Under the pieces are notes generated by a model. It was not told the origin of the DNA. It did no database searches and saw only the letters and a list, made by a program, of their open reading frames with translations. 64,000 nt of DNA from a virus: IMG/VR virus record IMGVR_UViG_3300044731_000789, positions 1 to 64,000 of that record, one strand, 5' to 3'. Shown here in pieces: positions 4,660 to 64,000 of this stretch (position 1 is the stretch's first letter; each line of letters starts with the position of its first letter). The position numbers were made by a program, and so were the translations under genes.

Positions 4660-4687
4660 AAAAAAGGGGGCTTCGGCCCCTTTTTTA
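4660..4687. terminator. Bidirectional intrinsic terminator
   Basis: A GGGGC/GCCCC stem with a TTCG loop, flanked by A6 on the left and T6 on the right, so it can work in both directions. It ends gp23 transcription (plus) and the endonuclease gene (minus). Confidence 0.9.
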
Positions 4688-6472
4688 TTTCTTTCGCCAT
4701 TCTAATTTTAATTTACCGCAATCATATATTCTATATATTCTGTTATAAATTGCTAATTCATGTTCTGTCATTGTTTCATCATATTTTAGTTTTGGATCAT
4801 TTTTAAATCTGTTTTTTCTAAATCCGAACTTATGTTTCCTTTCATCGTTATGGACATATGTATAATCGACAGGCAATCTATCAACAATATAGAAACCATT
4901 TTCTAAATAAGATTCTCCAGTAAACATTTGCAAATCAACAAATGTGTGGATTATATCTAATTTAGAATTTTTCACCAATTTGCTCAACCCACCAACCACT
5001 TTGCATGATGTGGTATACCTAGTTAAAATGTTGCCATTGAACAACATTGCTGCAACAATTTCTCCATTATACTCAAGACAAACATTATATGAATGTACCG
5101 CATACCCTTGGATATGGTATTTCACAAAGAACTTAGTCAAAAATTCTTTCCCAACATTATATAAAACGTTGCATTTCCTGGCAAAAATGCTTATATCATC
5201 ACATTTACCAATAGAATTTTTGATAAATCTTTTAACTATATCAAACCTATCAACAATATCATCTTCATATATATGAATCAATCTTATACCAAGATTTGAA
5301 CACATATCTGTTTTCATTTTGTGATATGTTGATAATTTGTATACTTCTGAATGCCAATATACACCATTTATTTCAAACGCAATATTTTTTTCTGGTATAA
5401 TAATATCTAATTCATATGGAGATATTATTTGTTTAGTGCTATATTCATATGTAACATCTAATGAATCTAAATAATCCCTAATTTTATATTCATATGTAGA
5501 AACTGTATTATCGATTCGTATTTCTATACCATGTCCAGTCAAATATCTGGAAACACATGAGTCAGTACATTTTAAAATAGCGCAAATATCATATGTGGAT
5601 AATTTATTTGTCACATATTGCTCATACATCCAGTCTCTATTATTTAATAAATCCCATGCAAATTTTCCAAGTCTTGTTTCAGAACCTGATCTAACTGGTA
5701 TATTATGTTTATTCAAATAATTTCTAACTGTTCTTTGTGAGCAACCTAGTTCCAAAGCAATTGCGTCCATAGATACCCAATTCACACAATATGCTTTATA
5801 CAACCACAAAAAACTTGATAATTTTTCAATAGCATTTTTGCTTAATTGGTTTTCGGTTCCATTTCTTAACGGAATACCATATTGTTTTATATATTTCAGA
5901 ACAATACCTGTACCACATCCACATATAGAACTTATATCAGATGATGAATATTGTTCCAAAATATATTTCTCATATAACCAATCATATTGTTCCAATGTAT
6001 TTGATAAATCAACTTGACAACAATTATATTGAATTTCTTTTATGCCATGTTTTGAAATCCATTTAGATATAGTTGGGTGAGAAACTCCTAATTCATTTGC
6101 TATATTTTCTTTGGATTTCTTATTTACAATCCTTTGGGTATATAACCAATCTTTATCTTTAAGTTTATCCATAATATTTTTGTTCAATCTTGGTGTAGAT
6201 TGTCTACACAAATCTGAACAAAATCTATTAAACCCAAGTTTGTTGTTTCTCGCGTTTACTGATGTATTACCACCACAATGTTCGCATTTTGGTATATCAT
6301 GAATATTATTTTTGACACAATATATTCTTAGTGAATAAGTTGGTGTTAAACTATTGAGAAATGATGTTTCATCCAACAATTTTGAAACAATTTCTTGTTT
6401 AGACTGTGATAGACTTATTGCAGATTTATTCTCACATAAGTCTATCACATATTGACTATATTTTTTATCCAT
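4685..6472 (-). CDS. Vsr-fold (EDxHD) homing endonuclease with repeated HTH motifs
   Basis: 595 aa. The N-terminus has a zinc-finger-like PKCEHCGG...FCSDLCRQ segment (residues 58-90). There follow four repeats of a 'W(L/M)Y..Y......S...I' helix-turn-helix unit (for example LGVSHPTISKWISKHGI), likely DNA recognition modules. The nuclease part near residues 340-410 contains 'ELDIIIPEKNIAFEINGVYWHSE', shown here in two blocks as ELDIIIPEKN and IAFEINGVYWHSE. This fits the Vsr-like EDxHD family to which I-Bth0305I belongs. It is free-standing, convergent with gp23 and ends inside the shared terminator. Capsid-adjacent sites are common homes for such genes. I infer cleavage of gp23-region DNA in phages lacking it. 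Confidence 0.85.
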   Translation of the reverse strand: MDKKYSQYVIDLCENKSAISLSQSKQEIVSKLLDETSFLNSLTPTYSLRIYCVKNNIHDIPKCEHCGGNTSVNARNNKLGFNRFCSDLCRQSTPRLNKNIMDKLKDKDWLYTQRIVNKKSKENIANELGVSHPTISKWISKHGIKEIQYNCCQVDLSNTLEQYDWLYEKYILEQYSSSDISSICGCGTGIVLKYIKQYGIPLRNGTENQLSKNAIEKLSSFLWLYKAYCVNWVSMDAIALELGCSQRTVRNYLNKHNIPVRSGSETRLGKFAWDLLNNRDWMYEQYVTNKLSTYDICAILKCTDSCVSRYLTGHGIEIRIDNTVSTYEYKIRDYLDSLDVTYEYSTKQIISPYELDIIIPEKNIAFEINGVYWHSEVYKLSTYHKMKTDMCSNLGIRLIHIYEDDIVDRFDIVKRFIKNSIGKCDDISIFARKCNVLYNVGKEFLTKFFVKYHIQGYAVHSYNVCLEYNGEIVAAMLFNGNILTRYTTSCKVVGGLSKLVKNSKLDIIHTFVDLQMFTGESYLENGFYIVDRLPVDYTYVHNDERKHKFGFRKNRFKNDPKLKYDETMTEHELAIYNRIYRIYDCGKLKLEWRKK

Positions 6473-17388: not shown

Positions 17389-17742
17389 ATGGATAAGAAT
17401 GAAACAATTGTTTTAAATATTCATTTAAAAAATGGTGTTCAATTGATTGGAGAAATGGAATATTCTGATGAACATTCTACAGGAATTCTTAGACCAATTG
17501 AAATCAGAAAAAGACCGTCATTCGGTAAAAATGGTGTATATGAAGTAATTACAACTTCTCCATTTTTATTAATGTCTGATTCATTTTTGTGTTCTATTCC
17601 ATCTTCAGAAATATTGGTACGAGGATGGTTACATGAAGATTTGTATGAAATGTACACAAAGTTAGCTTCAAAATATTATATGGATGTTTCTGAAATTATG
17701 GAAACAGATTTGCCCGACGAAGATAAAGGAACAATGCATTGA
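17389..17742 (+). CDS. Sm-like-fold protein of unknown function
   Basis: 117 aa. Residues 5-35 (IVLNIHLKNGVQLIGEMEYS) resemble the strand-turn pattern of small Sm/LSm-like beta barrels found in several T4-type phages. The C-terminus is acidic. Its stop overlaps the TTG start of gp55, so the two are probably coupled. A role in RNA or transcription is only a guess from context. Confidence 0.7.
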   Translation: MDKNETIVLNIHLKNGVQLIGEMEYSDEHSTGILRPIEIRKRPSFGKNGVYEVITTSPFLLMSDSFLCSIPSSEILVRGWLHEDLYEMYTKLASKYYMDVSEIMETDLPDEDKGTMH

Positions 17743-18386
17743 TAGCAGAAATTCAAAATGCCAAAAAAGCCAAAGACATTTATGTAGACAATGAAAGATT
17801 TGCTGCAGAATATGATAAATGGATAACAGAAGTTCACCATGCTCGTGCAAATGGTCTAAAAGACCCAAGAATTACAGAATATCTTGGGGAATGTATTTTA
17901 AAAATTTGTACAAGATTAACCTATATGCCATCATTTTACAACTATAGTTGGAAAAATGAATTTATTACAAATGCTATAGAAAATTGTATTAAATATTTTG
18001 ATCGATATGATAAAAATGCCATTTCAAAAAGAACTGGTAAAAAAACTGCTGGACCGTTTTCATATTTTACAACTATTGCATATTGGGCGTTTGTTCGCAC
18101 AATTTTGATAGAGAAAAAAGAATTGAAGAAAAAGCAGAAATATATTTCTCAATTGTCTTCAGTGATTACAGAAATTAGAGAATATGATTCTGAAGAATTT
18201 GACAATGAATATATAAATTATTTGAAACGGATGTTGGATGAAGATTTTTCGGGTGACGAAAAAAATGGTGAAAAGTTGAAAAAAGATGTTGACAATTTGG
18301 AAGAAGATGATATACTGGATATCATTGAATTGGACAAAGATTTGGCACTGGAAGTGTTGGAATATGATGAAGATGAAATTTTTTAG
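17739..18386 (+). CDS. 55: Late-transcription sigma factor (gp55-like)
   Basis: 215 aa. The segment 'YSWKNEFITNAIENCIKYFD', with the following 'FSYFTTIAYWAFVRTILIEKK', matches the region-2-like core of T4 gp55, which binds host RNA polymerase and reads TATAAATA late promoters. As in gp55 there is no region 4. The acidic C-terminal tail ending LALEVLEYDEDEIF resembles the clamp-binding end of gp55. The start is TTG 17739, overlapping the previous stop with AAAGGA 8 bases upstream; no nearby ATG is in frame. Confidence 0.9.
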   Translation: MIAEIQNAKKAKDIYVDNERFAAEYDKWITEVHHARANGLKDPRITEYLGECILKICTRLTYMPSFYNYSWKNEFITNAIENCIKYFDRYDKNAISKRTGKKTAGPFSYFTTIAYWAFVRTILIEKKELKKKQKYISQLSSVITEIREYDSEEFDNEYINYLKRMLDEDFSGDEKNGEKLKKDVDNLEEDDILDIIELDKDLALEVLEYDEDEIF

Positions 18387-22864: not shown

Positions 22865-23110
22865 ATGTCGTATATCGAACAGATGGTAGCAAATAAAATT
22901 ATTGATAGGGCGAATTTTGGGCTATCAAAATATGGGGTTGGAATGGACAGGACAGATATGTCTGTGTTACAATTCTTAAAAATGGCACAGGAAGAAAGTA
23001 TGGATTTTTGTGTATATTTGGAAAGATTAATTGTAGAAGAAGAATTGAGGGCACAAGACCAAAAGCAACAATCAAATATTGAACAAGATGATGGAGAAAC
23101 AACTGAATGA
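22865..23110 (+). CDS. Conserved T4-type phage protein of unknown function
   Basis: 81 aa. 'KYGVGMDRTDMSVLQFLKMA' and the following 'EESMDFCVYLERLI' resemble a short helical protein family common in T4-like phages, distantly like the helical bundle of MazG-type proteins. Start taken at ATG 22865. The stop overlaps the gp45 start by 4 bases. Confidence 0.65.
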   Translation: MSYIEQMVANKIIDRANFGLSKYGVGMDRTDMSVLQFLKMAQEESMDFCVYLERLIVEEELRAQDQKQQSNIEQDDGETTE

Positions 23111-23778
23111 AATTGTCAAAAGAAACTTTAGAAATATTGAAAAACTTTTCAACTATTAATGAAAACATCTGTATCAAGCCTGGAAACATTTTGACAACAA
23201 TTTCTGTTGGAAACAATATTATTGCAGAAGCGGTGATTGATGAATCATTTGACAAAGAATTTTGCATCTACAATTTAATTGAATGGTTAAATGTATATAA
23301 TGTTACAGATAATGGTGACATTTATATTATGGACAAATTCATGGACATTTCTTGGGGAAATAGTAAAATTAAGTATGGATTTGCAGACAAAGATTCAATT
23401 TATTATACCGAGAAGGTTCCAAAATTTCATCATAATGGTGGAAGTTTACCAGACCAAGTTATCGAAGTAGAAGTTGCATCCAGTACTATTAAAACTGCAT
23501 CTGTTTTAAAATCCCCCCATATGGGAATTGTATCCAATGGATCAAATGTAAAATTGAAAACATTTGATTATAATACACCATCATCAAATTCATATGAACT
23601 AGATTTGGATGTAAACCATGACAAGAAATTTGCAGCAATTTTGGACATCAATAGTTTGAAAATTCTCCCTGGAACATATAAGGTGAAAATTTCATCTGCT
23701 GGAATTACATGTTGGACAAATTTGGATAGACCTGTTACATATTATATCACATTGGATACAGTATCCAAATTTGAGTAA
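23107..23778 (+). CDS. 45: DNA polymerase sliding clamp gp45
   Basis: 223 aa (T4 gp45: 228 aa). N-terminal 'LSKETLEILKNFSTINENIC' and the repeated beta-strand/helix pattern match the trimeric clamp. It tethers gp43 and, with gp55 and gp33, activates late promoters. Gene order gp45-gp44-gp62-regA-gp43 follows T4, interrupted here by a tRNA-like sequence and a ferredoxin gene. Confidence 0.93.
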   Translation: MKLSKETLEILKNFSTINENICIKPGNILTTISVGNNIIAEAVIDESFDKEFCIYNLIEWLNVYNVTDNGDIYIMDKFMDISWGNSKIKYGFADKDSIYYTEKVPKFHHNGGSLPDQVIEVEVASSTIKTASVLKSPHMGIVSNGSNVKLKTFDYNTPSSNSYELDLDVNHDKKFAAILDINSLKILPGTYKVKISSAGITCWTNLDRPVTYYITLDTVSKFE

Positions 23779-28078: not shown

Positions 28079-30565
28079 TTGGAGTTCTATACAAGTGTCA
28101 GAAAACTTGGTAAAAATATTCTATACAGGGGAATAGATGAATATGGTAATCGTGTATGTGAAAAAGTTGAATATTCCCCAACATTATATGTGGAAGATAA
28201 TGTTGGGGAATGTATTCATAAATCAATGCATAAACTCCCACTTAAACCCATTAAATTTTTGAACATACCAGATGCAAATGAATTTATATCATCATATGAT
28301 TCAATTGAAAATTTCTCAATATATGGGGAAAAACGGTATGAATATTCTTTTATTAGTGAATTATTTAAGGGAAACATCCACCCAGATTATTCAAAAGTTT
28401 TAATATACAAACTGGACATTGAAACCAAATTAGATTTGAATGAAGGATTCCCATATCCTGCACAGTGTAGAGAAGAAATTTCATTAATCACTATAACAAA
28501 TTCTATTACAAAAAGGGTTACAACATTTGGTACGTTTGTTTATGATAATAGGGATAATGTTAATTTCATATATTGCATCAATGAAACACAACTACTAAAA
28601 CACTTTTTACAATTTTGGGTAAGTTCTTACCCAGATATTATTACAGGATGGTTTTCAAAAGGATTTGATATACCGTATCTATACAGAAGAATGGTAAAAG
28701 TTCTGGGGGAAAAACATGCAAAGAGATTGTCACCATTTAATTGGGTCAATGAAAGTGTGTCAGTAACCGACAAAGGAATGGAAGAATTTGAATATGACAT
28801 ATATGGAATCGATCATATCGATTACAGGGATTTGTACAAAAAATCTATTCAAGACCCAAGAGAATCATACAAACTAGATGAAATCGCCTTTATTGAATTG
28901 GGCGAACGAAAAGTTGAAAATCCATATGATACATTCAAAGAATTTTATGTAAACGATCCCAGTTTGTTTGTGTCATATAACATTCAAGATACAGTATTAT
29001 TAGATAGATTAGAAGACAAACTTAGATTACTTGGTAACATAATGTTTGTTGCATATAAGTGTAAAATAAATTTTTCAGATGCAATGTCTCCGGTTAGAAC
29101 CTGGGAAATTCTTATATACAACCATTTGTTGTCAAAGAATATCATAACACCCTTGGGTAAGTCTGGAGCACCAGTGCTAGATTTTGCTGGGGGATATGTT
29201 AAACATCCTGTTATTGGTAAACATAATTGGGTGGTGACATGGGATGTCAATTCTATGCATCCTCATATTATTATGAATTATAATATATCGCCAGAAACAA
29301 TGTTGAATACACCAGTTAAAAAGTTTTCTATCGATGATTTATTATACAAGACAGTAAATTTGGACAATATTGATGGAATAATGTCAGCTAATGGTGTGCA
29401 ATATTCAAAAGAGTTTGAAGGTATTTTACCAGAACTAATGTCAACATTTTATGCAGAAAGGCAATCAATTCAAGCAGAATTGAAACCCATGAAGAAAATT
29501 GATAACCCATCATCTGACATATTGGATAAAATCCGTATGATGGATGTGGCCCAAAATGGTATAAAGATTGGTATTCTTAATTCTGGGTATGGTGCATTAG
29601 GCAATAAACATTTTAAATATTTTGACACCAGATTGGCGGAAGCTGTTACACTAGGTAGCCAAATTGCTATCCGTTGGGTTGGCACTGCCATCAATGAATA
29701 TTTGAATAAGGTTTGTAAAACTGTTGATGAAGAATATTTCATATATGCTGACACGGATAGCAATTTTTTGAAATTTGAAAAATTTGTTGAATTGTACTGC
29801 CAAGGAATGACTGATAGAGAAATATCTGACACATTGAGTAAGGTATCGGAAGACAAAATTATTCCATTGATTGAGAAAAAATTTAATGAATTGGCTCAAT
29901 ACATGAAATGTAATGAAAACAGATTAAAAATGTCAAGAGAAAATATTGCAAAATCTGTTTTTTTCAGGGGGGCAAGAAATTATGCAATGGCTGTTGTTGA
30001 CCAAGAAGGTAAAAAGTATGATCCCCCAAAAATGAAAATAGCTGGGTTAGAATGTGTTAAAAGTTCTACTCCAAAAATTGCAAGAGAATACCTTAAAAAA
30101 TGTGTTGAATTGATATTATTGGACTCAATTGAATCTGTAAGAGAATATGAACAATCTGCAAAACAAGATTTTTATTCAAAATCTGTTCAAGAAATTGCTT
30201 TACCTAGAAGTGTAAATGGTGTGGAAAAATATTCTGATCCAACAACTTTGTATAAATCACGATGCCCTATTGCCGTTAGGGGGGCAATATTGCATAATTA
30301 TTATGTTACAAAACATAATTTACAAAATAAATATCAAATGATAAATGATGGAGACAAAATAAAATTTGCCTATCTAAAGTTACCAAACCCAATTAGGGAA
30401 AATGTTATTTCATGGAATGGAAAAATTCCCCATGAAATAATTCTTGACAATATGTTTGATTATGATATAATGTATTCCAAAGCATTTATTGGACCGCTTG
30501 AATCAATGCTTGATTGTGTCGGATGGGATTTGAAACACAAATTTAATATTTTAGACTTTTTTTGA
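28079..30565 (+). CDS. 43: DNA polymerase gp43 (family B)
   Basis: 828 aa, slightly shorter than T4 gp43 (898 aa). Exonuclease motif I YKLDIETK near residue 110; polymerase motif A 'DVNSMHPHIIMNYNISPETM' near 390; motif C YADTDSNF near 557. Start is TTG 28079 (MEFYTSVRK), because family members begin with this '(K)EFY' sequence, a GGGGGAG ribosome site is right before it and no ATG fits. RegA would be expected to control its message, as in T4. Confidence 0.96.
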   Translation: MEFYTSVRKLGKNILYRGIDEYGNRVCEKVEYSPTLYVEDNVGECIHKSMHKLPLKPIKFLNIPDANEFISSYDSIENFSIYGEKRYEYSFISELFKGNIHPDYSKVLIYKLDIETKLDLNEGFPYPAQCREEISLITITNSITKRVTTFGTFVYDNRDNVNFIYCINETQLLKHFLQFWVSSYPDIITGWFSKGFDIPYLYRRMVKVLGEKHAKRLSPFNWVNESVSVTDKGMEEFEYDIYGIDHIDYRDLYKKSIQDPRESYKLDEIAFIELGERKVENPYDTFKEFYVNDPSLFVSYNIQDTVLLDRLEDKLRLLGNIMFVAYKCKINFSDAMSPVRTWEILIYNHLLSKNIITPLGKSGAPVLDFAGGYVKHPVIGKHNWVVTWDVNSMHPHIIMNYNISPETMLNTPVKKFSIDDLLYKTVNLDNIDGIMSANGVQYSKEFEGILPELMSTFYAERQSIQAELKPMKKIDNPSSDILDKIRMMDVAQNGIKIGILNSGYGALGNKHFKYFDTRLAEAVTLGSQIAIRWVGTAINEYLNKVCKTVDEEYFIYADTDSNFLKFEKFVELYCQGMTDREISDTLSKVSEDKIIPLIEKKFNELAQYMKCNENRLKMSRENIAKSVFFRGARNYAMAVVDQEGKKYDPPKMKIAGLECVKSSTPKIAREYLKKCVELILLDSIESVREYEQSAKQDFYSKSVQEIALPRSVNGVEKYSDPTTLYKSRCPIAVRGAILHNYYVTKHNLQNKYQMINDGDKIKFAYLKLPNPIRENVISWNGKIPHEIILDNMFDYDIMYSKAFIGPLESMLDCVGWDLKHKFNILDFF

Positions 30566-31633: not shown

Positions 31634-31733
31634 CAAATTGACATGTCATCCATACTGGTTTCACCAAGCAACGAAGTTGCGAAGCCAGAGCCAATTATGT
31701 CTATGTCCGTTAATTTCCCAGTTCCCCTGGGTA
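31634..31733 (-). ncRNA. omegaRNA scaffold region of the tnpB element
   Basis: Read on the minus strand, this overlaps the last eight tnpB codons and runs about 75 bases past the stop. In known TnpB systems the guide RNA is made from this end and its guide part is set by the DNA just beyond the element, here below about 31634. It agrees with 2929-3028 at about 85 of 100 positions, showing the conserved part. Confidence 0.65.
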
Positions 31734-32864
31734 TTTGTTCGGTATTCCTAGATCAGATAAGCCTCTGGCTAGAATATTTTTAGCAGCATTTAAGTCTCGG
31801 TCATGGAAAGTATTGCAGGAACTGCAAGTCCATTCCCGAATATGTAAAGACATTGGTGTTTCATGTCTATGACCACAAACATTGCAGTCTCTGCTAGTAT
31901 AATTGGGGTTGACCTTCAAGAATGTTCTTCCGTACCATTTGGATTTATATTCCAATAACCGGAAGAAATCAGACCATGAAGCATCAGCTATAGATCGAGA
32001 TAATCTTTTGTTTTTCAAAAGATTCTTGATTTTTAAGTCTTCTACGATAATAACATCGTTGGATTTTACTATCTTATAAGATAATTTGTGTAGAAAGTCC
32101 GAACGGGAGTTCGATACTTTCTGGTAGATCAGAGCAACTGCTTTACGTTTCTTTTCTCGTCTATTAGATTCTTTTTTGGAACGAGACAAAGCACGTTGGG
32201 AACGTTTAAGTGCTTTTAGTTTTTTCTTTAGAAATCGTGGATTCTCAACAGAATTTCCGTTGGAATCATAAAGAAAGACTTTTAAACCAGCATCAATACC
32301 AATAATATTATTGGTGGCTGGAAATAAATCTACTTGACATTCTACAGAAAACGATATATGATACTTACCAGTGGCATCCAATGAAACAGTTGCCATTTTG
32401 GGTATCCCAGGAAATTCATGGGATACTTTAATTTTAACAGCACCTAGTTTTGGTAGTTTAAGAACTCCGTCCTTAAGGACAATATCCTGCATACGCACGG
32501 ATTTCTTGTTATACTTAGATTTGAATGTTGGTAAACCGGCTTTATTGGAACCTTTTGGTTTCTTTAAATCCCTAAAGAAATTAGAATACGCACTATTTAG
32601 GTCTAATAGTGATTGCCGTAGGCAAGTGCTAGGAACGTCAGATAACCAGTTAAAGTCTTCTTGTTTCTTTAAGATCGTAAGATCAGCAGATAACTGGTTG
32701 TTTGTTAGAGTGATACCTTGTTCTTTATAGGTATCACGTTTTAGTTTAAGATAATGGTTATAGACAAACCTTGAGCAACCAAACATTTTGTTTAGTAGTA
32801 TCTTTTGTTGTTGGTTAGGATAAAACCTAACCTTGAAAGATTTGTTTATAGTATTTTTGTTCAT
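31710..32864 (-). CDS. tnpB: TnpB RNA-guided endonuclease
   Basis: 384 aa, normal length. RuvC-like active site intact: Asp in 'NIIGIDAGLKVFL', Glu in 'VIIVEDLKIKNLL', Asp in 'HDRDLNAAKNIL'. Zinc ribbon CNVCGHRH...CSSCNTF lies between the last two. N-terminal OrfB-type 'FKVRFYPNQQQKILLNKMFG' domain is present. TnpB cuts DNA matching the omegaRNA guide next to a short target motif. No frameshift is seen, so it is probably active. Confidence 0.93.
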   Translation of the reverse strand: MNKNTINKSFKVRFYPNQQQKILLNKMFGCSRFVYNHYLKLKRDTYKEQGITLTNNQLSADLTILKKQEDFNWLSDVPSTCLRQSLLDLNSAYSNFFRDLKKPKGSNKAGLPTFKSKYNKKSVRMQDIVLKDGVLKLPKLGAVKIKVSHEFPGIPKMATVSLDATGKYHISFSVECQVDLFPATNNIIGIDAGLKVFLYDSNGNSVENPRFLKKKLKALKRSQRALSRSKKESNRREKKRKAVALIYQKVSNSRSDFLHKLSYKIVKSNDVIIVEDLKIKNLLKNKRLSRSIADASWSDFFRLLEYKSKWYGRTFLKVNPNYTSRDCNVCGHRHETPMSLHIREWTCSSCNTFHDRDLNAAKNILARGLSDLGIPNKYPGELGN

Positions 32865-38756: not shown

Positions 38757-38768
38757 ACAACAATAAAT

Positions 38769-38797
38769 AATACTATCAAATTCCTTGGGATAGTATT
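38769..38797 (+). promoter_or_regulatory. Hairpin directly abutting the start codon of the next gene
   Basis: AATACTATC (38769-38777) pairs perfectly with GATAGTATT (38789-38797), and ATG follows at once at 38798. The likely ribosome site GGGA (38787-38790) lies in the loop and arm. An AATAAATAA late-promoter-like sequence lies just upstream (38762-38770). Confidence 0.5.
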
Positions 38798-39190
38798 ATG
38801 AAAACATTCAAACAATTATTGACAGAAGGTAGAGGCGACAATCATTTGGCAACAGAATTGTTTCATAAATGTCGCCAAGCTGCTACCTTTTCTCATTATC
38901 AACACTTGATGACAGAAAGTTATGCCCAACATATGGCATTGGGCGCATTCTATGATGGAATTATCCCGCTTTTAGACAGTTTCCTGGAAACATATATTGG
39001 TTTATTTGGTAAACTAGAAACTATACAAGAAAATATTCAAGTACCTTTTAAAGTATCTGTATACGAGTTGAAAGAATGGATTGAAACCAATCGTCAACAA
39101 ATTTCTGATTCTACAACCCTTCAAAATATATTGGATACAATAGTTGAATTGTGTTCATCTACTATATACAAATTGGAAAATTTGAAATAA
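38798..39190 (+). CDS. Ferritin-like helical phage protein (DUF5856-like)
   Basis: 130 aa. It starts MKTFKQLLTEG, an opening common to T4-type virion and late proteins. The rest is a helical bundle with 'ESYAQHMALGAFYDGIIPLL', which matches a phage family of unknown function thought to have a ferritin-like fold (His and Glu/Asp spaced along helices). A hairpin covers its ribosome site. Overlaps the next gene by one base. Confidence 0.7.
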   Translation: MKTFKQLLTEGRGDNHLATELFHKCRQAATFSHYQHLMTESYAQHMALGAFYDGIIPLLDSFLETYIGLFGKLETIQENIQVPFKVSVYELKEWIETNRQQISDSTTLQNILDTIVELCSSTIYKLENLK

Positions 39191-39840: not shown

Positions 39841-40731
39841 TCAATCTAATCTTTTGCATTTCCATTTTTCATGGTGCAGTGATCTACCACATGCAACATT
39901 ACTCATACTACGCTGTGACAACCCATTTCCTTTACAAAACTGAGTTAAGTTTTTAATCACAAAAACCTCCCCATCAGGGGCTGTAATTTCCCAGGTTTTT
40001 GCTTTTGAATTAGCTATTTTATTGCGTATTTCTTTTGATAGGTTTTTACCAAAATTATGATTGAGATCACCCATTTTGGATTCTGACATTTTTCGTTTCG
40101 CTTCATCTGTATGCTTAACGCCATACATAGAGGATAATTCCCCACATTTTCCATACATTGGATTATTTTCCCCCGTATTAAGTTGACTTAATAATTGTTT
40201 TGTTTGGTCACTATGCTTGAATGTAGTCATGAAAATTTTTATTTTTTCTACATGTTCATCGGATAATTTCCTACCGTAATTGGGTGATAATTCCCCACGT
40301 TTTCCATACATTGGATTATTTTCCCCTATTCTTGATAGACTATATGATTTTCTCCGATCTTCCGAAAATAATGATTTCAATCGATCCTTTTCTTCATCGG
40401 TGTAAACCTTTCCGATCATGTTAAATTGTTTTATAGAATTTTTGTGGTAAGACTTATTAAGTTTTAACGCATTGTCCCAATTTTCAAATATCAATTCTTG
40501 TTCAAAATTGTAACACTCGATTGGGTCAACAAACATTGCAACAATATGCCAATCAAATTCATCAAAAATTGGTTTTACAATTTTGGAACTTGTTCTGTAT
40601 TTAATCAAATCTTGTTCTGGGGGAAGTTTTATAGATTTTGCGGTTCTGGAACCAATATAAAATTGTCCAGTTTCACGATGGATGCCCATATAGACATATG
40701 GCAATACTTTGGTTGACCGATAAATAGTCAT
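39841..40731 (-). CDS. GIY-YIG homing endonuclease with NUMOD3 repeats
   Basis: 296 aa from ATG 40731, supported by AGGAGAAT just upstream on the minus strand. The N-terminal nuclease part has 'PYVYMGIHRETGQFYIGSRT' in place of GIY...YIG. The middle has three NUMOD3-type DNA-binding repeats (GENNPMYGKRGELSPNYGRK type) and the end an NUMOD1-like helix-turn-helix (LTQFCKGNGLSQRSMSN). Free-standing, Seg-like; it sits convergent to small genes and upstream of a late structural gene. Confidence 0.88.
   Translation of the reverse strand: MTIYRSTKVLPYVYMGIHRETGQFYIGSRTAKSIKLPPEQDLIKYRTSSKIVKPIFDEFDWHIVAMFVDPIECYNFEQELIFENWDNALKLNKSYHKNSIKQFNMIGKVYTDEEKDRLKSLFSEDRRKSYSLSRIGENNPMYGKRGELSPNYGRKLSDEHVEKIKIFMTTFKHSDQTKQLLSQLNTGENNPMYGKCGELSSMYGVKHTDEAKRKMSESKMGDLNHNFGKNLSKEIRNKIANSKAKTWEITAPDGEVFVIKNLTQFCKGNGLSQRSMSNVACGRSLHHEKWKCKRLD
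40133..40326. repeat. Two 41-base direct repeats within the GIY-YIG gene
   Basis: Bases 40133-40173 and 40286-40326 differ at about one position. They encode two NUMOD3 copies (GENNPMYGK...GELS). Near identity at DNA level suggests a recent duplication. Confidence 0.7.
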
Positions 40732-40819
40732 GCTGATTCTCCTTGGAAGAGTTAGAGCTTGTGGATGGTGGGACATCGTGACAAGCATCAATTTAAACAT
40801 TTATTACAAGTATTATTTA

Positions 40820-47537: not shown

Positions 47538-48542
47538 ATGGAAGAATTGCCAAGATTATTACAACCACAAGATACATATGTTGTGGAATATCCACAAGCA
47601 GTAGAGGCAGCATTAGAACAATTTCATATAATTTGGAGTCCAGATGAACCAGATGTGGAAAAGGATTTGCATCAAATAAAAACTGATTTTACTGAGGCAG
47701 AATATCATGGAGTAGTTTCTACTCTAAAGTTGTTTACATTATATGAGAGAAAGGTTGGCGAAGATTATTGGGCAGGATTTGTATCTAAAATTTTCAAACG
47801 TCCTGATATTATAAGAATGGCACAAACTTATGCATTTATAGAAACAGCCATTCATGCACCATTTTATAACAGACTTAATGAAGTACTTGGTTTAGATAAT
47901 GAAGAATTTTATTCAAGTTATTTGGATGATCCAATTTTGAAAAATAGAATGGATTGGATTGGAAGAAAAACTATTGTTCCTGACCCATCAAATGTTATAA
48001 AAATATTAGAATCCTTGGCAGTATTTTCTATGATAGAAGGGGCAATTTTATATTCAAATTTTGCATTTCTAAAACATTTTCAAGCAGATGGAAAAAATAA
48101 GTTAACAAATGTTTGTGCTGGGATTGATTTTTCATTAAAGGACGAAAACATACATTCTCAGGCTGGGGCATGGCTATATAGAACATTGAAAGATGAATAC
48201 TTGACTCTATACCCAGAAAAAATTAATTTAATACGCTCATTAGAAAATGATATAACAGAAACTGGTAAAGTTGTTGTAGAGCATGAAACCATAATTATCC
48301 ATAAAATATTTGAAAAGGGTAAAATTTCAGGTATAACTGATACAAAAATGATAAATTTTGTGCAATCTAGGGTAGATATGTGCTTAGATAATTTGGACAT
48401 TTCTCCAATATTTAAACCTAGTTATAACCCAATTGCTAAAACATTTTATAACAATATCAATGGATCAAAGATGCACGATTTCTTTGCACGACAAGGGAAC
48501 GAATACAATAGAAAATGGGTTAAATCTAAATTTATTTGGTAA
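47538..48542 (+). CDS. nrdB: Ribonucleotide reductase small subunit NrdB
   Basis: 334 aa. Di-iron site residues occur in 'KTDFTEAEYHGVVSTLKLFT', 'YAFIETAIHAPFYN', 'FSMIEGAILY' and 'SLKDENIHSQAGAW'. Generates the radical for NrdA in making deoxyribonucleotides. Lies before nrdA, the reverse of the common nrdA-nrdB order; a GGAGAAATG ribosome site precedes it. Confidence 0.94.
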   Translation: MEELPRLLQPQDTYVVEYPQAVEAALEQFHIIWSPDEPDVEKDLHQIKTDFTEAEYHGVVSTLKLFTLYERKVGEDYWAGFVSKIFKRPDIIRMAQTYAFIETAIHAPFYNRLNEVLGLDNEEFYSSYLDDPILKNRMDWIGRKTIVPDPSNVIKILESLAVFSMIEGAILYSNFAFLKHFQADGKNKLTNVCAGIDFSLKDENIHSQAGAWLYRTLKDEYLTLYPEKINLIRSLENDITETGKVVVEHETIIIHKIFEKGKISGITDTKMINFVQSRVDMCLDNLDISPIFKPSYNPIAKTFYNNINGSKMHDFFARQGNEYNRKWVKSKFIW

Positions 48543-48547
48543 AATAT

Positions 48548-49666
48548 ATGTCAGACATTTACGAAGAATTAAGCAAAGAAAGAAAAAATTTACAAGAACA
48601 AGGGAAATTACCAGATTGGGTAACAACTATATCATGGCAAATGTTAAAGGAAAAATATCTGCGACCAGAATGGCCAGATTTATTGTCAACATATATCAGA
48701 ATTTCTACCCATGCTTCAACCTATACAGATAACCCATCATATTGGCAACCAAAATTTTTTGATGTTATGTGGAATGGTTGGCTGTCATTATCGACACCAG
48801 TATTAGCAAATATGGGTACTGGAACTAATTGCCCAGTAAGTTGTTCTGGTGGAGTGATTGGTGATTCTGTATACGATTTTTATGATATGCAAGTTGAAAC
48901 CGCACTTTTATCAAAAAATGGATTCGGTACATCTGCATATTTGGGCGATATTAGACCAAGGGGGGCACCTATAAATGGATTGAAAGGTGGTGCTAGTGGT
49001 GTATTACCAGTATTCAAAGATTATATACAGTTATCAAAAGATATATCACAAGGCAATAGTCGAAAAGGAGCCTGGGCGGGATATATTGAAATCGACCATC
49101 CAGATTTTTATGAGCTAGTTCAATATATCAAAAAATTTCCAGATGATGCTAATATTGGTTGGATAATAACAAATAAATTTATAGATAGATTGGATAATGC
49201 TGATTCCGATGCTATTGATAGATATCAGGAAGCATTGTTATTAAAAATGTTGACTGGTAAAGGATATTTCTTGTTTATTGATAGGGTTAATGACGTTAAT
49301 CCAAAAATGTATAAAGATAAAGGATATTCCGTTAAAGCTTCAAATTTGTGTGTGTCTGGTGATACAGTGGTTGAAATTAGATATGACGATATTGAGCTAA
49401 AAGTCATGATAAAGGAAATTGGTAATATACTTAAAAATTATGATAATATAGAAGTTAAATCATTTAATGAAAATACACAACAAGTAGAGTGGAAACCAAT
49501 TACAGATTTCAATTTAACAAAGAAAAAAGCAAGGGTGTTGAAAATAATTGATGAAAAATCTGGGAGATATATTAAGTGTACACCATGTCATTTAATATAC
49601 ACTACCAACAGAGGATATGTTAGAGCAGATCAGTTAAATGAACTCGATACGTTAAATATTATATAA
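48548..49666 (+). CDS. nrdA: NrdA N-terminal part fused to N-intein
   Basis: 372 aa. Residues 1-267 are the N-terminal part of class I ribonucleotide reductase large subunit (LSTPVLANMGTGTNCPVSCS; 'KNGFGTSAYLGDIRPRGAPI'). It lacks the ATP-cone of E. coli NrdA. At 49349 the sequence SNL is followed by Cys and 105 residues of N-intein: block A CVSGDTVVEI, block B 'KCTPCHLIYTTNRGYVRADQ'. The stop at 49664 ends the intein early. The rest is supplied by the gene at 50681, so splicing must be in trans. Confidence 0.93.
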   Translation: MSDIYEELSKERKNLQEQGKLPDWVTTISWQMLKEKYLRPEWPDLLSTYIRISTHASTYTDNPSYWQPKFFDVMWNGWLSLSTPVLANMGTGTNCPVSCSGGVIGDSVYDFYDMQVETALLSKNGFGTSAYLGDIRPRGAPINGLKGGASGVLPVFKDYIQLSKDISQGNSRKGAWAGYIEIDHPDFYELVQYIKKFPDDANIGWIITNKFIDRLDNADSDAIDRYQEALLLKMLTGKGYFLFIDRVNDVNPKMYKDKGYSVKASNLCVSGDTVVEIRYDDIELKVMIKEIGNILKNYDNIEVKSFNENTQQVEWKPITDFNLTKKKARVLKIIDEKSGRYIKCTPCHLIYTTNRGYVRADQLNELDTLNII

Positions 49667-49672
49667 TTCTTT

Positions 49673-49728
49673 GTGGTGAAGTTATGTTAAATATAAATAG
49701 TAATGTATTTAACATAACTGGAACCACT
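49673..49728 (+). promoter_or_regulatory. Hairpin that hides the endonuclease ribosome site
   Basis: A 14-bp perfect stem (49680-49693 with 49706-49719), plus an outer GTGGT/ACCAC (49673-49677 with 49723-49727), closes right before ATG 49729. The putative ribosome site GGA (49720-49722) lies in the stem bulge. The loop and left arm hold a late promoter. Long early transcripts would fold and block translation; late transcripts, starting near 49706, lack the left arm. Confidence 0.75.
49692..49699 (+). promoter_or_regulatory. Late promoter TATAAATA inside the hairpin
   Basis: Exact late promoter element spanning the end of the left arm and the loop of the hairpin at 49673-49728. Predicted start near 49706, the first base of the right arm. 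Confidence 0.75.
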
Positions 49729-50694
49729 ATGAATTACTGCAAAATATACACCAATTTTATGGAATATGTAACAAACACTTCTCCATTTGAGAGAATGGTT
49801 GGACGGAATAAAAATGATTTTAGAAAAGATTATGACAAATTATACACAGAAAGCCATCACATATTACCAAAATCCCTTGGTGGTACAGATGATCCAACAA
49901 ATTTAGTGGTGTTGTTGCCAGAGGAACATCTATTCATCCATGCATTGAGATATAAAGCATTTAATACCCCTCAAGATTTTATTGCAGTTAGATTAATAAT
50001 CAATGGTATGAATACAAATTCTAGGTTTGGAGTGGTGCCTGACAATGTTAATAAGAAAATATTGTCAACATATGCCTGGATGAAACAAAATTCTGCCACT
50101 TTCAGATATGAACATGGATGGCAGACTGAGGATGGTCGAAGAAGAATATCTGAGGCCAGAAAGAATACAATGCCTGTTAAATGTGCAATAACTGGGGAGA
50201 TGGTTGGAACTGTACCTACTAACCACCCAAAGGTTATTTCTGGAGATTGGGTTCACCATTCTAAAGGGAAACATACATATAAACATATTTTAACTGGCGA
50301 GAAAATATATTGCAACACCAATGATGATAGATTGAATAGTGGAGATTGGACATCTACGTGGATCGATGTGGCTGGGGAATTAAACCCACGATTTAGCGGT
50401 GTGTCAGATGATGACATATTGGAATTTTATAGGAAATTAATTAGAGTCATCATAACATTATATGATGCAAAGCATGTACCAGGAATAGCATACACAAGAA
50501 AAATATGGAATGCCATATATGATAAAAAACTACCACATCTTTCTGGCGGTATTAGAAGCGGATTCAGGTTCAATGGAGACATATATGAAAACCTGTACAA
50601 AAAAATGGAATCCGAATTCAATGTCGCATATAGTATGTATAATAAAGAGACTAAAAAATTTAATATAACAGAGGTAATCAATGCTATTAATTGA
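49729..50694 (+). CDS. HNH homing endonuclease inside the fractured nrdA
   Basis: 321 aa. HNH motif near residues 42-70: 'YTESHHILPKSLGGTDDPTN', then LVVLLPEEHLFIHALRY. The C-terminal half has repeated 'SGDW' type segments and a probable DNA-binding end. Start ATG 49729 follows the regulatory hairpin; an in-frame ATG at 49684 lies within it. Its end overlaps the C-intein ATG by 14 bases, so translation of the NrdA C-part may depend on it. I infer that it cuts intein-less nrdA and so spreads the insertion. Confidence 0.88.
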   Translation: MNYCKIYTNFMEYVTNTSPFERMVGRNKNDFRKDYDKLYTESHHILPKSLGGTDDPTNLVVLLPEEHLFIHALRYKAFNTPQDFIAVRLIINGMNTNSRFGVVPDNVNKKILSTYAWMKQNSATFRYEHGWQTEDGRRRISEARKNTMPVKCAITGEMVGTVPTNHPKVISGDWVHHSKGKHTYKHILTGEKIYCNTNDDRLNSGDWTSTWIDVAGELNPRFSGVSDDDILEFYRKLIRVIITLYDAKHVPGIAYTRKIWNAIYDKKLPHLSGGIRSGFRFNGDIYENLYKKMESEFNVAYSMYNKETKKFNITEVINAIN

Positions 50695-51676
50695 AGAATT
50701 AAACGAATTAGAAGATGTTTATGACATCACCGTAGAGGATAACCATAACTTTTATGCCAACGGAATCCTTGTGCATAATTGTAACGAAATAATGCTCTCT
50801 TCCAAAGAAGACGAGACATTCACATGTATACTTTCATCAATGAATCTATCAAAATTTGATGAATGGAAACATACCGATGCAGTATTTGTTTCAACCGTTT
50901 TCCTAGATTGCGTAAATAGCGATTTTATACAAATTGCTAAAAATATCAAAGGGTTAGAAAGAGCTGTTAGGTTTGCTGAAAGACATAGGGCATTAGGTCT
51001 TGGTGTATTAGGGTTTGCAACCTATTTACAAGATCATATGATGTCATTTTCAGGTTTGGATGCTCATTATACTAATATAGAAATGTTCACACATCTTAAT
51101 GACGAATCTTTGAGAGCATCTAAATGGATGGCAAAAAATTGGGGGGAACCTGATATGTGTAAAGGATATGGGGTTAGAAATACTCATAGAATGTCATGTC
51201 CACCAACAATGTCCACAAGTATTATAGTAGGTAGTATTTCACAGGGAATTGAGCCATTTTTTGAGAATGTATATACTCAAGGTAGTGCCGCTGGAGATAT
51301 GCATAGAATAAATCCATCGCTTTTACCCATAATGAAGAAAAGAAATGTATACAATAAAAAAACTGTTACTGACATTATTAATAATAATGGTTCAGTTCAA
51401 CACGTTACTTGGTTAGATGATAATGAGAAAGAAGTGTTTAGAACTGCGTTTGAAATTCCACAGGAGGCTATACTACGTTTAGCATCAACCAGACAACCAA
51501 AGATAGATCAAGGCCAAAGCGTTAACTTATATTTTGGCGCAGATGAAGACGAGGAATATATATCACAAATCCACAAAATTGCTTTTAAAGATAAAAATAT
51601 CAAAGGGTTATACTATATAAGGTCAAAATCTGGAGTAAAGGCATCAAAAGAATCTTGTGAAAATTGTCAAGGATAA
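50681..51676 (+). CDS. nrdA: C-intein fused to NrdA C-terminal part
   Basis: 331 aa. Residues 1-33 are the C-intein (block F/G: YDITVEDNHNFYANGILVHN); the next residue is Cys at 50780-50782, followed by NEI. In NrdA the motif is N-x-C-x-E, so the first residue of this C-extein is the thiyl-radical cysteine itself. Residues 34-331 carry 'VRFAERHRALGLGVLGFATY', the radical-transfer region and a C-terminal CENC pair for re-reduction. Joined to the 267-residue N-part it gives a 565-aa enzyme. Confidence 0.93.
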   Translation: MLLIEELNELEDVYDITVEDNHNFYANGILVHNCNEIMLSSKEDETFTCILSSMNLSKFDEWKHTDAVFVSTVFLDCVNSDFIQIAKNIKGLERAVRFAERHRALGLGVLGFATYLQDHMMSFSGLDAHYTNIEMFTHLNDESLRASKWMAKNWGEPDMCKGYGVRNTHRMSCPPTMSTSIIVGSISQGIEPFFENVYTQGSAAGDMHRINPSLLPIMKKRNVYNKKTVTDIINNNGSVQHVTWLDDNEKEVFRTAFEIPQEAILRLASTRQPKIDQGQSVNLYFGADEDEEYISQIHKIAFKDKNIKGLYYIRSKSGVKASKESCENCQG

Positions 51677-62805: not shown

Positions 62806-63253
62806 AATTTCTGTTTGGCTAGACCTTGAAGAAACATTAATAAAAAGTTGGCATGACCATATGCTTATTAACGATTTCTTCAAGGTCAAAAAATATGTAG
62901 AATCCTTGCAAGCAAATAAGGTAAACATTTTTTCATATGCAATATGGACAAATGAAGACAAATATGAATTTGAAAATGATTTAAAACCATGGTTAGAAGA
63001 TCATTTGGGATTTTTTATTGAAAAAAATCCAAGTGTTGCAGATATGGTTAATGCAACAAAACAATTTCAAGGAATTATTTACTTAGATCACATTGATTTT
63101 ATCAATTTGGTTCCAAAATGGTTGGGGTTTTATTATTATATTTCAAACTTGCAATCCAACAATACAACATATTATTTAATTGATGATTGTGTGCCAAATA
63201 TGGTAATTAATTCCAACAATACTATTCAATTTGTTAATGTAAAAGACTTATAA
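62798..63253 (+). CDS. HAD-like protein, degenerate active site
   Basis: 151 aa. 'ISVWLDLEETLIKSWHDH' has the place and shape of HAD motif I, but reads D-L-E-E-T instead of D-x-D-x-T. 'NIFSYAIWTNEDKYEF' is near motif II, and 'TYYLIDDCVPNMV' looks like motif IV. The altered motif I makes phosphatase activity doubtful. Similar proteins occur in T4-like phages without known role. Confidence 0.6.
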   Translation: MNKISVWLDLEETLIKSWHDHMLINDFFKVKKYVESLQANKVNIFSYAIWTNEDKYEFENDLKPWLEDHLGFFIEKNPSVADMVNATKQFQGIIYLDHIDFINLVPKWLGFYYYISNLQSNNTTYYLIDDCVPNMVINSNNTIQFVNVKDL

Positions 63254-63268
63254 ATTTTGCCACATATG

Positions 63269-63276
63269 ATATAAAT
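63269..63276 (+). promoter_or_regulatory. Late promoter TATAAATA
   Basis: Exact match, 30 bases before the gene at 63306. Confidence 0.72.
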
Positions 63277-63305
63277 AGTTATTTTAATAATAACTGGATA
63301 TCATT

Positions 63306-63584
63306 ATGTGGCAAAATATTTTAAATTCCGTAAAAACATTCATTTCAGCATTCTTTAAATCAGCATGGCAAAAAGAATTAAACATTTTGATGCCAATTGC
63401 GTTAGAAGTTGTTACATATGTGGAACATAACTATTCAGAGTTATTTGATCCTAGTAAACGCGATGCAGCATTTAAAATTATATTATCTAAACTTGATGAT
63501 GCACATAGAGAAATACCAAAATCTCTAATTAATTTAGCAATCGAATTGGCATGTCAGGAAATGATTGCATTGTCTCGCAATTAA
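63306..63584 (+). CDS. Late protein of unknown function
   Basis: 92 aa. Amphipathic start (WQNILNSVKTFISAFFKSAW), then 'ALEVVTYVEHNYSELFDPSK' and a helical end. The second half is loosely like the C-terminal region of LL-H-type phage holins, but no membrane segment is clear. Late promoter, so a structural or lysis role is possible. Confidence 0.6.
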   Translation: MWQNILNSVKTFISAFFKSAWQKELNILMPIALEVVTYVEHNYSELFDPSKRDAAFKIILSKLDDAHREIPKSLINLAIELACQEMIALSRN

Positions 63585-63585
63585 A

Positions 63586-64000
63586 TCATTCTACCTTTGT
63601 ACATATCCACCCCTTATGGTTTTCCATGGTCCCTTTGTTTACATGTAACATACACCCGTAGGATAATCCATAAGTCTTACAAAATTTAGATAAATTTCTT
63701 TGGAAAATAACTTCACCCTCTGGTGAAGTTATTTTCCAATTGTTTGAATTTATATCTGATGCCCTAGTTATAACACCCAGATACCAACCGTCCCCAGGAC
63801 ATTCCTTTTGAAATTTGCATATTGATCCATCTGTCCACCATTTACTATTTCTATTGTGTGATCTATTTCCCTTAGCTATTTCTGATTGTTTTCGTCTTGC
63901 TTCCATGGTATGCTTTTTTCCATACATGCTATTATTAACTCCAAACCTATTAATATCCCTATATACAAATACTTTATCAATATTAGTAACTGCTTGGTTC
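63586..64000 (-). CDS. Homing endonuclease C-terminal part, cut by window edge
   Basis: At least 137 residues; the frame stays open to the window end, so the start and the nuclease domain lie outside. Visible are a NUMOD3-like 'NSMYGKKHTMEARRKQSEIA' and a NUMOD1-like end 'LSKFCKTYGLSYGCMLHVNK'. This matches the C-terminal layout of the GIY-YIG gene at 39841, so a Seg- or HNH-type homing enzyme is likely. Confidence 0.75.
   Translation of the reverse strand, partial: NQAVTNIDKVFVYRDINRFGVNNSMYGKKHTMEARRKQSEIAKGNRSHNRNSKWWTDGSICKFQKECPGDGWYLGVITRASDINSNNWKITSPEGEVIFQRNLSKFCKTYGLSYGCMLHVNKGTMENHKGWICTKVE

Follow-up and report, generated by a model that had tools for sequence, protein, structure and literature searches.

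Organization of the fractured nrdA locus

We analyzed a 64,000-nucleotide stretch of viral DNA (positions 1 to 64,000 of IMG/VR record IMGVR_UViG_3300044731_000789, hereafter the window), from a viral contig of 76,202 bases, with attention to the leader of an HNH homing endonuclease gene that interrupts nrdA. The plus-strand gene order at the locus is a ThyX-like gene, NrdB, the NrdA N-half with an intein N-half, the HNH gene, and the intein C-half with the NrdA C-half. The nrdB-like small-subunit gene (47538..48542; PF00268) lies upstream of the nrdA halves and is transcribed in the same direction. The N-terminal half of NrdA fused to the intein N-half (48548..49666) was recognized by Pfam domains PF02867, PF00317 and Intein_splicing PF14890 and by alignment with Yersinia phage TG1; its intein portion (49349-49663) begins at the Cys of ..SNL/CVSGDTVVEI (the slash marks the junction). 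The HNH gene (49729..50694) encodes a 321-aa protein of the MobE-type family phrog_655 (E 6e-26), whose HNH residues ESHHILPK..N..EEH align with MobE. The last open reading frame (ORF; 50681..51676) carries the intein C-half (50681-50779), ending ..VHN, after which NrdA resumes at the Cys at 50780-50782.

The HNH ORF is thus flanked by two nrdA parts, each with one intein half, and both halves have the usual intein ends (CVSGD... and ...VHN/C). When the intein halves were removed, NrdA aligned unbroken over ..ASNL/CNEI.. to the class I ribonucleotide reductase (RNR) alpha chains 6dqx and 6dqw. The intein-type fracture of nrdA around the HNH gene, proposed in a preliminary description of this DNA, was therefore confirmed. 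The cysteine of NLC would be the counterpart of E. coli Cys439, the radical cysteine; in that case NrdA is predicted to be inactive without trans-splicing.

Judged by its genes, the phage is T4-like: the contig encodes a gp43-type DNA polymerase, gp46/47, UvsX, a clamp, a major head protein and a gp55-type late sigma factor.

A hairpin and a putative late promoter in front of the HNH gene

The HNH gene is preceded by an inverted repeat on the plus strand with arms at 49680..49693 and 49706..49719 (14 nt, 100% complementary, 12-nt spacer), which extends to 16 bp as RNA when 49694-49695 are included. Outside it lies a 5-bp stem formed by GTGGT (49673..49677) and ACCAC (49723..49727), the latter ending one base 5' of the ATG at 49729, and a third helix (49664-49669 with 49731-49736) extends beyond the ATG. 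Inverted-repeat detection and folding agreed on the inner and outer stems that had been described earlier. A Shine-Dalgarno-like TGGA (49719..49722) lies outside the 14-bp stem, mostly in a small internal loop between the inner and outer stems. The minimum free energy was -29.4 kcal/mol as compared to -11.9 +/- 2.8 for shuffled sequences (z = -6.3), and none of 200 shuffles was as good. Hairpins of at least 14 bp with loops of up to 20 occurred only twice in total over eight order-1 Markov sequences of 64 kb. The left side of the outer stem belongs to a GTRGTGA block (49670-49680) 5' of the hairpin that was kept in the window, TG1 and two related loci from IMG/VR (L003 and L093, introduced below), while the arms were not.

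The motif TATAAATA at 49692..49699 (plus strand) overlaps the left arm and the loop of the hairpin, at the arm/loop junction, as the preliminary description had it. The window has nine TATAAATA sites, and no other is enclosed by a perfect stem of at least 8 bp. Half of the 10 copies in the contig fell within 60-nt gene upstreams, where 0.53 were expected, and ATAAATA was among the most enriched 7-mers of gene upstreams, after Shine-Dalgarno words. The sequence NATAAATA precedes the scaffold, major head protein, tail-fibre-like and holin-like genes. The window also encodes a T4-type late sigma factor of the gp55 family (17739..18386, plus strand; phrog_234, E 6e-39) and a gp45-family sliding clamp, the late-transcription co-activator in T4 (23107..23778, plus strand; phrog_223, E 2e-52). 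Since gp55 is present and the motif lies upstream of late-type genes, the reading of TATAAATA as a late promoter of this phage is well supported. With the spacing of T4 late promoters, the predicted +1 is the motif end plus 6, namely 49705. The start near 49706 suggested earlier was thus off by one base, but its consequence stood, as the left arm would be absent from such a transcript.

Predicted accessibility of the HNH start

We expressed accessibility as the opening cost, the energy needed to free the start region (49713-49735), using folding energies that ignore ribosomes and proteins. For transcripts with upstream 5' ends (49400-49620) the opening cost was 14.8-19.3 kcal/mol, as compared to 1.8 kcal/mol for a 5' end at 49705 and 1.4-2.9 kcal/mol for 5' ends from 49700 on. 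The cost fell as the 5' end moved from 49681 to 49690, with loss of the left arm, and shuffling the left arm alone lowered the mean cost to 6.6 kcal/mol. A transcript from 49706 formed no structure. The claim that a long early transcript hides the HNH start and a late one frees it was accordingly supported in silico. The HNH start itself (MNY..) was set from homologues; an in-frame ATG upstream at 49684 was rejected as the start because close homologues begin with MNY and lack the extension. The region around that ATG was likewise folded, with an opening cost of 20.8 kcal/mol.

The preliminary description had also raised an effect of the hairpin on synthesis of the NrdA C-part, and this was not upheld. 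The C-half has its own ribosome site, AGAGGT, within the HNH gene (50670-50675), and opening its start at 50681 cost 4.2 kcal/mol, close to the median for the genes of the phage (4.9 kcal/mol), so that NrdA synthesis need not depend on the hairpin.

These features suggest the following sequence of events. Nrd operon transcripts initiated upstream, early or in the middle of infection, would carry both arms, and the hairpin would cover the ribosome site and ATG so that no endonuclease is made. The same transcripts would still yield the two NrdA halves, each translated from a start site of its own, and the split intein would join them. Late in infection, RNA polymerase programmed by gp55 would initiate at TATAAATA within the hairpin, at about 49705; the resulting RNA would lack the left arm, which would leave the HNH start open for synthesis of the endonuclease. 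We inferred the transcript ends, the read-through from upstream (assumed from gene order) and the effect on translation in this model.

Related loci with the same geometry

The window HNH protein used as a single query had no match in viral contigs, and a search of genome contigs gave distant matches only; relatives were found through alignment-based searches. Three homologous fractured nrdA loci, that of Yersinia phage TG1 and two IMG/VR types (L003/L004 and L092-L095), share the gene order and insertion point of the window, and their HNH proteins are 39-48% identical to that of the window. Each has a 12-13 bp perfect hairpin with TATAAATA at the arm/loop junction. Their arms agree with the window arms at only 2-5 positions, and arm identities across the hairpin set including mobE of Aeromonas phage Aeh1 were 1-7 of 12-13. 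The ribosome site lies in the right arm in the three homologous loci and between the stems in the window. Unrelated arms with the same geometry in homologues provide strong comparative evidence for selection on RNA structure and promoter position. The gp55 gene was not found in the contigs of L004, L092/L093 and L096/L097 (the last pair is described below), which are partial.

A second group of fractured nrdA loci (L009, L098, L100 and L102-L125) encodes a more distant HNH protein, ~28% identical to that of the window over part of its length (L106). Their hairpins, of ~9-12 bp, have a left arm overlapped by NATAAATA, a loop that contains the ribosome site and a right arm that contains the ATG; several pairs are changed on both sides. 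The difference in opening cost between upstream-initiated and late transcripts was 10.9-18.2 kcal/mol in the five loci of the perfect-hairpin set (TG1, L003/L004, L092-L095 and Aeh1 mobE among them). Over the 21 motif-bearing loci including Aeh1 it was 3.3-18.2 kcal/mol with a median of 8.2, whereas 24 other sites with a late promoter (32 sites minus endonuclease genes removed by hand) had a median of 2.8. The Mann-Whitney p value for this comparison (0.002) is only indicative, since the loci are related.

Weighing of alternative explanations

Several observations weigh against a transcript-selective switch. One relative (L096/L097) has the same element layout with neither motif nor hairpin, and the loci that do have them are relatives and not independent samples. 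TATAAATA was enriched only in gene upstreams and not over the whole window, and a search for an upstream early promoter found sigma-70-like sites only at the level of shuffled sequences. Ribosomes that reach the end of nrdA-N (49666) would open the outer stems, though the inner stem alone (5' end 49678) would still cost ~10.5 kcal/mol to open. Finally, 3 of the 24 control late sites also showed large accessibility differences, indicating that the arrangement is not confined to endonucleases.

The palindrome could instead be a DNA operator bound by a protein, for instance for autorepression of the endonuclease, with RNA folding incidental. I-TevI does bind an operator that overlaps its late promoter and resembles its homing site (PMC2988022), and conservation of the GTRGTGA block in close homologues would suit such a site. 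However, it is the pairing that is retained among homologues whose arms share little sequence. Moreover, when the leader was compared with a reconstruction of the empty nrdA site, the window, L003 and L093 showed no more similarity than shuffled sequences did, and TG1 showed weak similarity (3 of 60 shuffles). We therefore consider an operator unlikely. Even less probable is a role in termination or RNase processing that would part nrdA-N from the downstream genes: there was no terminator-like call and no T-run 3' of the stem, the downstream NrdA half is needed along with the N half, and the presence of TATAAATA at the arm/loop junction in every hairpin-bearing close homologue would be left unexplained. 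That an AT-rich palindrome came to contain TATAAATA by chance has in its favor the base composition of the genome (GC 0.325) and the occurrence of other long hairpins in the window, but the z score and the unique placement of this copy of the motif speak against it. The arrangement also recurs in homologues with unrelated sequences, and we regard chance as the least credible of the three. Taken together, we consider the element, on in silico grounds, to be a transcript-selective translation switch for the homing endonuclease, with a probability of roughly 0.87.

Other hairpins, late motifs and mobile genes

The motif was also seen in a strong hairpin at the holin-like gene 63306-63584 (phrog_608), where TATAAATA (63270-63277) lies in a structure over the ATG (63236-63335; -28.2 kcal/mol, z -6.7) with an opening cost of 25.7 kcal/mol, as compared to 4.6 for the late transcript. 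The layout is that of the T4 lysozyme gene e and would represent a second copy of the predicted switch, on a probable lysis gene. A weaker version precedes the ORF at 38798-39190 (phrog_858), in which an 11-bp hairpin (38767-38799) runs into the ATG with AATAAATA over its left arm. Upstream of TG1 gene 36 (L084, 40817-40846), the tail-fibre hinge gene is preceded by a late promoter within a 10-bp hairpin, with an accessibility difference of 10.5 kcal/mol. The longest hairpin of the window (63700-63739; 18-bp perfect, 4-base loop) is downstream of the holin-like gene, and the gp43-type DNA polymerase gene has a 15-bp perfect hairpin (28173-28211) within its first 45 codons.

Two more homing-endonuclease-like genes were found on the minus strand, at 4685-6472 (phrog_3339) and 39841-40800 (phrog_314), the second with TATAAATA 13 bases 5' of its ATG. 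The minus strand of this T4-like phage also carries an IS-type transposase gene (31710-32864; phrog_506).

Discussion

The combination of a hairpin with a late promoter has been described for I-TevI, I-TevII, I-TevIII, segB and Aeh1 mobE and for the native genes e, soc and 49 (PMC2988022, PMC3014915). In the leaders of I-TevI (T4 td intron), I-TevII, I-TevIII and segB, transcripts from upstream have their ribosome site hidden by the hairpin, and a late promoter inside the hairpin gives RNA without the left arm (PMC2988022). Those enzymes are mostly GIY-YIG or intron-encoded, whereas the window has an HNH gene between split-intein halves. In the T4 genes e, soc and 49 the same RNA mechanism delays synthesis of a late protein (PMC3014915); these are native late genes, unlike the mobile endonuclease gene studied here. 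The preliminary description was right to cite the intron endonucleases of T4, since the same arrangement is published for I-TevI, but it missed the closest precedent, mobE of Aeh1, an HNH gene in nrdA (PMC2988022).

The hairpin and late promoter of Aeh1 mobE have been published as regulatory (PMC2988022, PMC3014915). Its product belongs to the same phrog_655 with a homologous N-terminal region, the gene lies inside nrdA, and the 13-bp hairpin that reaches its ATG has the late-promoter-like sequence TCTAAATA where arm and loop meet. The two differ in the break: the NrdA parts of Aeh1 have no intein and are separated after NLCIEIALPTVPM, while in the window a split intein is inserted directly before the NLC cysteine. 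Because Aeh1 mobE precedes it, the window element belongs to a known kind, here in a split-intein setting.

Fractured genes, in which an endonuclease ORF between split-intein halves breaks a gene as it does in the window, were reportedly described by Dassa et al. 2009. PMC3653736 cites that work for intein-interrupted nrdA genes, and it is also cited in PMC10448857. Our literature search, which did not extend to the primary Aeh1 and fractured-gene papers, found no description of a promoter-in-hairpin leader in split-intein fractured genes. The locus thus joins two known things, split-intein fractured genes and the delay of an endonuclease through a late promoter inside a hairpin. In T4-like phages, fractured split-intein nrdA elements probably have the promoter-in-hairpin switch as a standard part that has been rebuilt repeatedly. 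The switch would exist in at least two architectures, one with the hairpin before the ATG and the other with a loop that holds the ribosome site, a right arm that holds the ATG and a late leader of 11-15 nt, and would let an early-needed gene carry an endonuclease made only late. Its recurrence offers a natural set of variants for asking why homing endonucleases in RNR genes must be late.
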